From positions 62,001 to 126,000 of the forward strand of contig NZ_BSNK01000002.1 in the NCBI RefSeq assembly GCF_030159955.1: a stretch of 64,000 nt of DNA, given 5' to 3'. The notes under the pieces are model-generated. The model was not told the DNA's origin and did no database searches. It saw only the letters and a list, made by a program, of their open reading frames with translations. The position numbers were made by a program, and so were the translations under genes. The stretch comes from Algimonas ampicilliniresistens (GTDB lineage Bacteria; Pseudomonadota; Alphaproteobacteria; Caulobacterales; Maricaulaceae). Below are positions 1,483 through 8,878 of this stretch, piece after piece. Position 1 is the stretch's first letter. Each line of letters starts with the position of its first letter.

Positions 1483-1530
1483 AAATGGAGCGGGCGATGG
1501 GATTCGAACCCACGACATTCAGCTTGGGAA
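1483..1530 (-). repeat. Left attachment-site copy: 3' fragment of tRNA-Gly(CCC)
   Basis: These 48 bases are identical to 8831-8878. On the minus strand they correspond to the CCA end, acceptor 3' strand, T arm, variable region, the 3' half of the anticodon stem and most of the anticodon loop. The homology stops abruptly inside the anticodon loop, so this is a tRNA fragment and not a functional gene. A same-orientation 3'-tRNA fragment at a distance from the intact gene is the classic footprint of a tyrosine-recombinase element. Confidence 0.85.
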
Positions 1531-1687
1531 ATGAAAATTGGGATGTTCGGTCAGTGCGCTACAGTTGACGATTGTTGACGAAATGTGAGCCGAATTGCCT
1601 TTGAAAATCGGGGGTTGTGTCGGCCGTTTTTGTCAATTCTAGTGAAGAAGCGTGAAACTTTGTCGAATGAGTTTCGATCTAGAACTC

Positions 1688-1705
1688 GTAACCGCGAAGT
1701 AACCG
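1688..1705 (+). repeat. Possible recombinase arm-type site, left
   Basis: GTAACCGCGAAGTAACCG carries two GTAACC units 11 bp apart and recurs with a single mismatch at 8716-8733, also just inside the island boundary. Paired short direct repeats near both ends resemble arm-type binding sites of tyrosine integrases. This is inference from position and sequence only. Confidence 0.4.
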
Positions 1706-1781
1706 CGTCACAAAATTGGTTTCAAAACAGACATTTACCGAGAAGGTCGTTTAGTCCAGCTTGGCGGCAGAAACCGACTTT

Positions 1782-1822
1782 GGCTCAGTGACTTAAAACG
1801 CGCAAAAACGGACGCTCACTAA
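1782..1822 (+). repeat. Imperfect intergenic repeat, copy 1
   Basis: This block aligns with 6385-6425 at about 31 of 41 positions; the right-hand 29 bases match at 24 positions. Both copies lie in gene-free parts of the island. The nature of the element is unknown. Confidence 0.4.
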
Positions 1823-1851
1823 TTGTAGCTTACAGTCGCCTAAATTTTGCA

Positions 1852-1866
1852 GACACTTAAAGTGTC
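1852..1866 (-). terminator. Weak terminator-like hairpin after the haem oxygenase gene
   Basis: The 15-nt stretch has GACAC/GTGTC arms around a TTAAA centre. On the minus strand it lies 9 bases past the haem oxygenase stop and is followed by a mixed A/T stretch. The stem is short and the T-run imperfect, so termination is only possible. Confidence 0.3.
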
Positions 1867-6293: not shown

Positions 6294-6738
6294 CTGGGCG
6301 TGATACCGTCAGATCTTAAATGCAGATGCCGACCTTGTCACATCAGACGTTGAGCGTCTTAAAGTCGCCCCATAACGGCCACTCGAGCCAGAGACGTAAA
6401 ACGCCCAAAATAAGACGCTCACCAAAGTCTGCATCTGGTCGTTTCCAGCCGTTTTAATGGCGTCATGCCAACGGCTACTTTGTGGACAAAGCGGACATCG
6501 GCTGAGTATCCTTGAGGGTAGAATTTAGGGCGCTTAGACTTTCAAAATCGAATACGAAGAGTTGCGATGCGTGCATGCGTAAATACACTTACCGCAGACG
6601 AAATCGGTCAATAATAAAACAGATTACAGTATTAAAGCACGAATGCGCATTGCAGCGACAGCGTATCATGAAAAGCTCACCAAAGTGCCGACCTGTCGTG
6701 GAATTCGAGGATGCGACCTTGGATCTAGGAAGCCACGG
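6294..6738. other. Gene-free region inside the island
   Basis: About 445 bases have no supportable gene. The stretch contains the second copy of a 41-bp imperfect repeat (6385-6425). A plus-strand frame at 6512-6766 runs into the 3' end of the convergent hydrolase gene, lacks any motif and is considered spurious. The sequence looks like degraded intergenic DNA. Confidence 0.5.
6385..6425 (+). repeat. Imperfect intergenic repeat, copy 2
   Basis: This block aligns with 1782-1822 at about 31 of 41 positions in the same orientation. Both copies are in non-coding parts of the island. No open frame or strong hairpin is shared. Confidence 0.4.
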
Positions 6739-7887
6739 CTATAATCGCTTTGAACGGGCAACATAGCCATGAAGTTCCGGCGAGTCCGGATCGAGCAAAT
6801 CAAGAATGTCGACCATTGCCGATATCCCAGCCGCATTCGTAGCGTTCAGAAACACAACCAAACCATCGCGACTATCCTCATAATAGTACGCCAAGGTAAC
6901 CATAGACCAATCCGACCCTAAATGTCCGACCGTCTTTCCATCTTGAAGGTCGAAGACATGCCAACCCAATCCATATCCGGATCGATCCGGACACAGTGCA
7001 TCCGGAACAGGTCTACAATCATATTCGGCTTCAGGCTTGACGATTGAATTACGTTCCTGCGTTAGAGCGATCCCCAGTCGTTCATCTGTCATCGTTGAAA
7101 TAAGAAATTTCGTGTACTCCGACAGTGATATGACCATGTCGCCTGAGGCAGAAAAACTCCCTTCCTCACGACACCACCCTTCTGGCCGACAATAGTGACC
7201 ATGAAATTGTCCATCCTGATCTAGTGTTTGGGCAATTTGAGCAAACAAGTCAGATCGAACAGTCAATGATGCATTGTTTAATTCCAGAGGCGTAAATACG
7301 TAGTGATCAACCAGTTGTTCTAAGGGTTCACCAAGCTTCCGTTCAACAAATTCTGCTAGATACTTATATCCCTCTCCAGAGTATCCATAAGTCGTGCCCG
7401 GATCAGATACGAATTTGAGCTTTCCGTCTTCGGCGAAAAAACGCCAATTCATAAAGCCTGATGTGTGGGACAAGATCATACGGGGCGTGAGAAGCTTATG
7501 ACGAGGGTCGTCCATGAGGTCCGGATCAACCCAGTAATCGAACATGGGTTCGTCCAACGATATCCGGTTCTCTGCGACGAGCGATAGAACAGTTTCTGCG
7601 ATCACCGTTTTTGTGATCGATGCGACATTGAATAAAGTGCTCTCAGAAACAGCTGACACACGAGATTGCTGACCGAAGCTCCTTGTCCATTGAACCTTAC
7701 CGTCTTTGATAACAGAAATTGCGGCTGTGTTGATACCATGTTCTTCGATCACTTCCTGCAAGTGCCGCTCGATTTCAGCTTCCTCACTCTTTGCAATTTT
7801 CCGAATGTCTTCCGGCTCAGTGAAAATGGTGATAAATGCAACGCCCATGATGAGGCCGAAAAATGCTAGTATGATTGCAGTACGCAT
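6739..7887 (-). CDS. Serine hydrolase, beta-lactamase class C / penicillin-binding fold
   Basis: The protein is about 382 residues, with an N-terminal hydrophobic segment (AIILAFFGLIMGVAFITIF) that is a signal peptide or anchor. It carries the active-site tetrad SITK (S-x-x-K), a YSG in place of the usual Y-x-N, and HLG in place of K-T-G, as in esterase or peptidase members of this fold. It is therefore probably a periplasmic D-amino peptidase, esterase or transpeptidase-like enzyme and not a proven antibiotic-resistance beta-lactamase. I place the start at 7887, next to the signal sequence; an upstream ATG at 7935 adds 16 residues. It is divergent from a ToxR-like regulator, which may control it. 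Confidence 0.82.
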   Translation of the reverse strand: MRTAIILAFFGLIMGVAFITIFTEPEDIRKIAKSEEAEIERHLQEVIEEHGINTAAISVIKDGKVQWTRSFGQQSRVSAVSESTLFNVASITKTVIAETVLSLVAENRISLDEPMFDYWVDPDLMDDPRHKLLTPRMILSHTSGFMNWRFFAEDGKLKFVSDPGTTYGYSGEGYKYLAEFVERKLGEPLEQLVDHYVFTPLELNNASLTVRSDLFAQIAQTLDQDGQFHGHYCRPEGWCREEGSFSASGDMVISLSEYTKFLISTMTDERLGIALTQERNSIVKPEAEYDCRPVPDALCPDRSGYGLGWHVFDLQDGKTVGHLGSDWSMVTLAYYYEDSRDGLVVFLNATNAAGISAMVDILDLLDPDSPELHGYVARSKRL

Positions 7888-8008
7888 CTTTAACTCTTTA
7901 TCAGTGTGTGGTCCTCCTAAACGTATGCCAATCAACCGCCGTCTATATCACCTGAAGAATAATGAAGATTCCTGATAATGTAGACAAAACAATACTTTAA
8001 AGTAGGTT

Positions 8009-8539
8009 ATGCGATATTCCTTCAAAGATCTGTCAATTGACATCACATCTCGATCTGTGTCCCGCGATGGAGAAGCCCTTAAGCTCCCGGAGCTCAGTTT
8101 TGAGCTACTCTTAGCTTTAGTTCAGTCAGCGCCTGCTATTCTGAGTCGAGAACAGCTTTCAAATACGGTTTGGAGAAAGACCCACGTATCTGACGAAACA
8201 ATTGCTCAGCGCATCAAACTGCTACGGAAATCTTTGGACGATGATCCAAAGAACCCGCGCTATATTCGGACAATTAGAGGCAGAGGCTATACACTCTTGG
8301 GCGTGGTATCCGGACAGGCTGAACTGTTTCAGACCACTGTCGTTCCAAGGTTCAATATGAAAGCCGCAATTGCCGTCATATCGTTTTTCTGCGTGAGTGT
8401 AACACTTATCGTGTTAATCCCCTTAGAATCTGATGCACCAACTACAGAAGGAGTAGTATCCGATATTAATCCATCGTCGAAAAATAAGAATAAGAACAAA
8501 ATCGGCCAGATTCGGGGAGATGAACGGAGGGCGTTTTAA
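8009..8539 (+). CDS. ToxR/CadC-like membrane-anchored winged-helix regulator
   Basis: The 176-residue protein begins with an OmpR-type winged-helix domain (about 1-100), visible in LSREQLSNTVW, the recognition-helix region ETIAQRIKLLRKSL and RTIRGRGYTLLG. A single membrane segment follows (about 117-140). The tail after it is short (about 35 residues), polar and Asn/Lys-rich, with no sensor domain recognised. Many CadC-like proteins carry long periplasmic sensors, so this one looks minimal or truncated. It is divergent from the serine hydrolase gene with a 121-bp gap, making that gene its most likely target. The start ATG at 8009 lacks a strong ribosome site. Confidence 0.8.
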   Translation: MRYSFKDLSIDITSRSVSRDGEALKLPELSFELLLALVQSAPAILSREQLSNTVWRKTHVSDETIAQRIKLLRKSLDDDPKNPRYIRTIRGRGYTLLGVVSGQAELFQTTVVPRFNMKAAIAVISFFCVSVTLIVLIPLESDAPTTEGVVSDINPSSKNKNKNKIGQIRGDERRAF

Positions 8540-8833
8540 GCTGCTCAGATAGTGTCAGCATTGCCCCCCCCCATAGCGAACATCAGACGACTTTTACTGC
8601 AGCAGTCAAACAGCAGAAGTTTCATGACCCCGTCATGAGGAAGTCCGTACTGGCTCCGAATAATTTCACATTTGGAAAGCGTTGATGCGCCTTCCCTCGT
8701 GTTCATGCCCATCATGTAACCACGAAGTAACCGAGCCCCTCGGACCCCGCGAAGAGCAACTCTCGAACCCAGTCGAAAACATCGAATTGGCTTCAATGTC
8801 CCGTAGAAACGTCGATTTTACTGGTTCAAGAAA
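8540..8833. other. Island right-end non-coding region
   Basis: Nearly 300 bases hold no supportable gene. The stretch includes a run of nine C at 8564-8572 and the second GTAACC-type element. Short frames here run into the tRNA gene and read its sequence; they are not proteins. Confidence 0.5.
8716..8733 (+). repeat. Possible recombinase arm-type site, right
   Basis: GTAACCACGAAGTAACCG differs by one base from 1688-1705 and has the same orientation. It sits about 100 bp inside the right att repeat. It may be an arm-type site of the lost recombinase; this is positional inference. Confidence 0.4.
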
Positions 8834-8878
8834 TGGAGCGGGCGATGGGATTCGAACCCACGACATTCAGCTTGGGAA
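8831..8878 (-). repeat. Right attachment-site copy within tRNA-Gly(CCC)
   Basis: This copy is identical to 1483-1530 over 48 bases and overlaps the 3' part of the intact tRNA gene. The match begins 3 bases beyond the CCA end and stops in the anticodon loop. Confidence 0.85.

Follow-up and report, generated by a model that had tools for sequence, protein, structure and literature searches.

Genomic islands that are bounded by attachment (att) sites and lack an integrase, islands that accrete in tandem, and tRNA islands centred on the anticodon are all already known, as described in the available parts of three papers (PMC5704250, PMC3146451, PMC4383910). In Dehalococcoides, the available part of PMC3146451 describes 15 islands at ssrA that lack an integration module and stand in tandem with others that carry an integrase. 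Here we describe an element at a tRNA-Gly(CCC) gene in a 64,000-nt stretch of Algimonas ampicilliniresistens (C2:62001-126000 of a 3.26-Mb genome, G000; this whole stretch is the window, and coordinates are window positions). We consider it very likely that 1483-8878 is an integrase-less genomic island resembling a cis-mobilizable element (CIME), which a tyrosine recombinase inserted at the anticodon loop of this tRNA gene and whose ends look mobilisable.

The borders are given by a perfect direct repeat, 48/48 bp, at 1483-1530 and 8831-8878, with a spacing of 7348 bp. The second copy overlaps a tRNA-Gly(CCC) gene on the minus strand, which ARAGORN places at 8834-8908 and Rfam at 8837-8908. 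The repeat starts 3 bp outside the 3' end of the tRNA and runs as far as 8878, where the 7-base anticodon loop has its edge; the intact gene and the displaced fragment stand in the right orientation on one replicon.

1483-1530, minus strand: att core, displaced 3' fragment of tRNA-Gly(CCC), distal island end (48/48 identical to 8831-8878)
8831-8878, minus strand: att core inside the restored tRNA gene (sequence identity)
8834-8908, minus strand: intact tRNA-Gly(CCC), integration target (ARAGORN, Rfam)
8872-8878, minus strand: anticodon loop, inferred 7-bp crossover region, where identity stops (sequence)

An earlier reading made from the letters alone (the sequence-only reading) had joined an orphan 3'-tRNA fragment to the intact tRNA-Gly(CCC) by a perfect 48-bp repeat; the identity and the tRNA calls bear this out, and its end coordinate of 8878 is correct. 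When the left copy was used as a 166-bp query (window 1455-1620) against the whole genome at E <= 0.001, three places were found. Besides the query itself, these were the copy in tRNA-Gly(CCC) and a stretch of tRNA-Gly(GCC) that matches at 83%. No third att copy was detected in the whole genome at this threshold. The same kind of border occurs in relatives. A search with the tRNA region in 61 genomes (our own and 60 relatives, E <= 1e-10) found, in 4 of the 60 relatives, orphan tRNA-Gly fragments of 48-51 bp whose end is at the same base as here or a single base farther on: two in G006, a genome of the same genus, two in G039, and one each in G025 and G029.

Each core is followed, on the island side, by an arm that contains a GTAACC dyad.

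1531-1706, no strand: right arm, conserved in two att-linked ends of G006 (identity to G006, model R2)
1688-1705, plus strand: putative integrase arm-type site GTAACCGCGAAGTAACCG (dyad pattern)
8715-8833, no strand: left arm, tRNA-proximal (identity to G006, model R1)
8716-8733, plus strand: putative integrase arm-type site GTAACCACGAAGTAACCG (dyad pattern)

The dyad, GTAACC-N5-GTAACCG, lies 157 bp inside the distal core and 97 bp inside the tRNA-side core, and these distances are alike in G000 and G006 (157-159 bp inside distal cores, 97-98 bp from tRNA-side cores). Across 19 genomes of the genus, there are five exact sites: both island ends and three att-linked places in G006 (C13:68533, C15:158 and C22:19165). 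A reversed control pattern has nine sites in the same 19 genomes (0-2 per genome), so the dyad count alone is not unusual and it is the placing at att-linked ends that is telling. With the spacing relaxed to GTAACC-N(3-7)-GTAACC, 124 kb of the contig contain exactly two sites, at 1688 and 8716, and 20 Markov-simulated sequences of the same length contain none. Moreover, when a left-arm model to which the right arm had not contributed was run on window 1-9200, its second-best match was 1687-1710 (E 0.032). Left-arm dyads were also found with exact N5 spacing in G086 and with one mismatch in G015 and G077. We read the five dyads as putative integrase arm-type sites of one kind of attP.

The arms themselves are conserved to different degrees. 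The right arm matches the two G006 orphan sites at 75.7 and 77.3% over 226-229 bp including the core, or 69.7 and 71.8% for the arm alone (~176 bp). The left arm matches the G006 tRNA-Gly(CCC) flank at 89.6% over 106 bp (arm alone) and 91% over 199 bp including the tRNA, whereas, to the right of the tRNA, the chromosomal blocks of the two genomes share 72.7-75.8% identity. In 138 genomes of the family at E <= 0.01, model R1 (left arm) matches seven genomes, five of them strongly, and seven of its eight loci adjoin tRNA-Gly, the exception being a weak match in G138; the left end recurs by tRNA-Gly genes in two other genera. Model R2 (right arm) matches five genomes, of which G000, G006 (two sites) and G089 are strong and G074 and G092 weak; alongside the G089 match, no tRNA core was seen. 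A second left arm beside 1483, as a tandem remnant might leave, was considered and rejected: the left-arm model falls in register at 1441-1478, only at E 2.3.

An integrase lies beside similar ends in G006. There, a 467-aa protein with DUF6538 and Phage_integrase domains starts ~130 bp away from one of the orphan att sites, and beside the other lies a remnant of its N-terminal part. Among 30 loci of its homologues listed from a longer list, a same-strand tRNA lies within 140 bp in 19, a tRNA lies farther off in two, and the locus holds none in nine. The closest homologue, in G041 (57%), is beside a tRNA-Gly fragment; in a 23-row tree, the G006 and G041 integrases group with modest support (83/75), and two tRNA-Gly(GCC) integrases form another clade. 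The G006 att site with the integrase is apparently in the same hot spot as the island, and the order in G006 would be chromosome, att, integrase element, att, restriction/CBASS-like element, tRNA. The dyads at both island ends, together with the att-linked ends and the integrase-adjacent att site of G006, support the tyrosine-recombinase type of geometry that the sequence-only reading had recognised.

As side observations on G006, the stretch from an att site to the contig end at loci L089 and L050 (contig C22) contains Type I restriction genes, an oligonucleotide cyclase together with a patatin phospholipase (resembling a cyclic-oligonucleotide-based antiphage signalling system, CBASS), and a second tyrosine recombinase. 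A 434-aa recombinase on C22 was tried as the cognate enzyme and rejected: an N6 dyad lies just upstream of it, but neither of its two paralogues has a dyad with fewer than two mismatches, and no relative exists in G000 at E <= 1e-10.

We propose the following course of events. A tyrosine recombinase, probably of the DUF6538/Phage_integrase type, would take a circular attP, composed of left arm, tRNA 3'-half core and right arm, and recombine it with the anticodon loop of tRNA-Gly(CCC). Integration would restore the tRNA and push the old 3' half out to 1483, leaving an island that retains both att cores and one putative arm-type site per arm and that carries only cargo. Because the island has no integrase of its own, its movement would depend on an integrase supplied elsewhere: one of the right specificity could come from another element at the same tRNA, as G006 suggests, or act in trans. 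That an integrase of the 467-aa type acts on the island ends is our proposal from the sequence arrangement. As parts of this scheme, we infer the crossover base, the binding of the dyads by an integrase and which integrase that is, a retained capacity for excision, and the route of transfer between cells.

The absence of an integrase from the interval, stated by the sequence-only reading, holds by two approaches. G000 has five PF00589 genes, none of them in the island. Two of the encoded proteins (310 and 342 aa) are read as Xer by size and score, and the other three genes are at C2:140152, C2:1497588 and C1:862609. Searches by tblastn with 26 integrases (23 matching the G006 integrase and three with Pfam Phage_integrase) gave best E values of 0.38 in the island, 0.56 in 1-1482 and 0.031 in the 20 kb to the left, and no remnant is claimed from these. 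The enclosed 7.3 kb is also cargo only, as had been stated: Pfam finds neither recombinase nor relaxase among the six cargo open reading frames (ORFs), with shorter ORFs not scanned and oriT not searched for. Phage structural or packaging genes are likewise missing from the Pfam matches of these six ORFs, PHROGs not having been searched. Nor was a site-specific recombinase found of the sort that an integrative and mobilizable element (IME) would encode for itself. A further suggestion, that a larger element with a third att copy extends leftward, found no support: besides the missing third copy, the sole PF00589 gene within 62 kb to the left is the 342-aa one read as Xer, ~56 kb away. Nor did a helper phage appear in viral_contigs, where the right-arm, left-arm, and core plus right-arm patterns had 0 exact matches and where the search for relatives of the G006 integrase confirmed none.

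Within the island reading, the element may once have carried an integrase of its own that a deletion removed, leaving an immobile fossil, a sub-case that we regard as quite possible though somewhat less probable than its opposite. The empty interval agrees with it, and the integrase remnant by one att site of G006 indicates that decay happens at this locus. In addition, the only G000 integrase related to that of G006 is at a tRNA-Leu gene ~68 kb to the right, with no dyad of fewer than two mismatches in the surrounding 18 kb; for this reason it was rejected as a helper in trans. On the other hand, neither the island nor the 20 kb to its left holds an integrase remnant, the att cores are still identical over 48 bp with both dyads exact, and the left arm is closer to G006 than the chromosomal blocks are.

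A different view of such islands is that they are no decayed islands and instead form a hitch-hiker lineage with dedicated ends, in which a left end conserved across genera (dyad plus hairpin-like block) lets unrelated cargo exploit the integrase of a neighbour. We hold this tentatively, and think it rather unlikely. The conserved left end differs from that of the integrase-bearing element, is spread by tRNA-Gly genes, and has no adjoining PF00589 gene at four further strong sites (G006 GCC, G015, G077 and G086); a fifth strong site, G006 CCC, is 152 bp from a contig end.

The left arm could also be the ordinary 3' flank of a tRNA-Gly gene, a trailer or terminator, in which case the true island would be smaller or end elsewhere. 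In its favour, the arm stands beside tRNA-Gly in nearly all model matches, at GCC as well as CCC genes, a short hairpin-like repeat is visible in it by eye, and the GCC-linked cases show no distal att copy in the stretches compared. Yet, judged by eye, the arm is present in only 4 of 16 tRNA-Gly 3' flanks of the genus (G000 CCC, G006 CCC and GCC, G015 GCC) and missing from 12, including the tRNA-Gly(GCC) of G000 itself, which makes a native tRNA trailer unlikely; it is restricted to the few family genomes given above, and it shares its dyad with the far end. The left arm is probably not a native trailer, and we consider an ordinary flank improbable. Weaker still, and in our view very improbable, is the idea that the repeat arose when the tRNA region was duplicated or when tRNA-Gly genes underwent homologous recombination with each other: the GCC and CCC genes of G000 are indeed alike (83% over the core) and the ungapped repeat can be extended 20 bp leftward at 88% overall identity, but the fragment reaches only to the anticodon loop, like those of four other genomes, and lacks the tRNA 5' half, a conserved 176-bp arm follows it here and at two G006 att sites, and both arms contain the same dyad.

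Returning to the integrase-less island, several observations weigh against it. An exact empty site, with the flank left of 1483 joined straight to the tRNA, was found in none of the genomes compared. G015 and G018 were considered and rejected as such sites, each having a single tRNA-Gly(CCC) core without arms but a differing left flank. The G006 integrase has a left end of its own that differs from the island's left arm and lacks the dyad, and 237 bp of right arm scanned at G041 show none either, so the pairing of this enzyme with the island ends is no more than a proposal. Dyads of other spacing occur with no att core seen, N6 at G006 C22:4867 and N7 at position 8954 of L114 (G077), and the G006 order described above spans three contigs (C13, C22 and C15). 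Codon use of the TonB-dependent receptor gene is ordinary (z -0.02), that of the haem oxygenase and hydrolase genes is only mildly low, and the low GC content of the island continues ~4.8 kb to the left of the att border, so that 1483 is not a compositional border. What the sequence-only reading had named as refuting, namely relatives with the same genes and flanks and no repeat, or an empty site whose border did not match, did not turn up. As to the target, tRNA-Gly(CCC) was recognised in only 4 of the 19 genus genomes (G000, G006, G015 and G018; matches at E <= 1e-10), with seven genomes that have a single untyped match counted as non-CCC.

Composition was examined by the GC and codon check that had been proposed. 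GC content is low in the island, 0.489 against 0.556 in window 9000-64000, and three of the six cargo genes have codon scores under all 26 background ORFs. The atypical composition does not begin at 1483: GC is 0.464 in 1-1482 and 0.488 in L004 16714-20000, amounting to 0.46-0.49 from the end of an aspartoacylase-like gene to the tRNA and 0.55-0.56 on either side. The ~4.8 kb outside the att pair is probably foreign DNA. This low-GC stretch (window 1-1482 and L004 16714-20000) encodes a histidine kinase, three receiver-domain proteins and a LysM protein, with no convincing match in the G006 contigs compared. Farther upstream, a LysR-like gene is common to G000, G006 and G015, and RimK- and aspartoacylase-like genes to G000 and G006, these names being our reading of unscanned ORFs. 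Measured from where the LysR match ends, the tRNA is ~6.9 kb away in G015 and 17.7 kb in G000; in G006, the first orphan att site is ~35 kb away, with the array beyond. TIR-like and DUF885 proteins are encoded near the tRNA in G015.

The island encodes six cargo proteins.

1876-2526, minus strand: haem oxygenase, 216 aa (PF01126, E 4.7e-40; best PDB match 5kzl, E 3.6e-25)
2549-3694, minus strand: PepSY_TM membrane protein, 381 aa (PF03929, E 1.1e-36)
3694-5739, minus strand: TonB-dependent receptor, 681 aa (PF00593 and PF07715)
5832-6293, plus strand: DUF454 protein, 153 aa (PF04304, E 6.1e-39)
6739-7887, minus strand: serine hydrolase of the Beta-lactamase Pfam family, 382 aa (PF00144, E 2.5e-40)
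8009-8539, plus strand: regulator with OmpR-type DNA-binding domain, 176 aa (PF00486, E 9.3e-20)

The sequence-only reading had called this a haem cassette, which is clear for the haem oxygenase and less so for the receptor. The former retains its LHxEAE and YLGDLNGG stretches, which hold the haem ligand and catalytic residues. The latter is nearer to the siderophore model TIGR01783 (170.4 bits, cut-off 223.5) than to the haemin model TIGR01785 (67.1 bits, cut-off 316.85) and is below both cut-offs. Between the divergent TonB and DUF454 genes, ATGTAAATGAGAATGAGTTGCA at 5789-5810 is by eye similar to a Fur box. The serine hydrolase scores far under the NCBIfam resistance cut-offs (25 of 32 families listed), with 46 bits against a cut-off of 415 for the class C model, and has no PADLOC match.

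The cargo is patchy across relatives, which favours the island reading. At E <= 1e-60, none of the 18 other genus genomes has a relative of the TonB receptor (one genome of 19 has it), and haem oxygenase is present in 4 of the 61 genomes, the other three copies having 36-42% identity. Elsewhere, we compared 64 loci by tblastn at E <= 1e-5 (57 with haem oxygenase from a wider search, four with haem oxygenase from our own or relatives' genomes, and L087, L088 and L090): haem oxygenase occurs with DUF454 in one and with the TonB or PepSY gene of the island in none, some flanks being short.

Other cargo is found at tRNA-Gly genes of relatives. The orphan fragments of G025 and G029 bound 10-kb islands at tRNA-Gly(GCC), with repeats of 55-56 bp and an integrase recognised by Pfam. 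The first (L047, G025:C4, 3681-14147; 10.4 kb, 56-bp repeat) contains Cas9, Cas1, Cas2, a repeat array with a 66-bp period and a Phage_integrase gene; the second (L048, G029:C4, 3397-13483; 10 kb) contains an integrase that has an arm-binding domain, and its other notable product is a 1787-aa RTX-repeat protein. At L090 (G015:C1, 2006-8406), by a tRNA-Gly(GCC) gene with the same left arm, there are another TonB receptor and a PepSY_TM gene, together with a 424-aa ORF that is recombinase-like by eye and has no Pfam match.

This tRNA-Gly gene appears to be an integration hot spot at which iron-uptake, restriction, CBASS-like and other cargo differ between close relatives. The locus offers a concrete attP anatomy, with a core and two arms of one dyad each, possibly for the DUF6538 integrase family. 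In the literature searched, we found no paper on DUF6538 or on the island cargo at tRNA-Gly, which is not proof of absence from print.

Compared with the tRNA islands of the Islander type, as described in the available part of PMC4383910, the present island likewise has an intact tRNA and a displaced 3' fragment in the right orientation, and it falls in the anticodon-loop crossover class. It differs in having no integrase gene between its att sites, which the Islander search requires; searches of this kind miss integrase-less islands such as 1483-8878. The Dehalococcoides islands, as far as the available part of PMC3146451 describes them, are similarly site-specific cargo islands at an RNA gene, some without an integration module. 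They use a serine recombinase at ssrA, whereas the present evidence suggests a tyrosine recombinase that acts on the anticodon loop of a tRNA. We place the island with the CIMEs, as described in the available part of PMC5704250. CIMEs would arise by decay of an integrative and conjugative element or an IME; here the island contains no integrase remnant, and an integrase stands beside like ends only in G006. As a difference from CIMEs, no helper was found at the locus in G000. Like them, the island appears to retain both att sites, with 48-bp cores and a dyad in each arm as attL and attR, it has no integration or transfer genes among the Pfam matches of its six ORFs, and in the relative G006 an integrase-bearing element occupies the same hot spot in apparent tandem.

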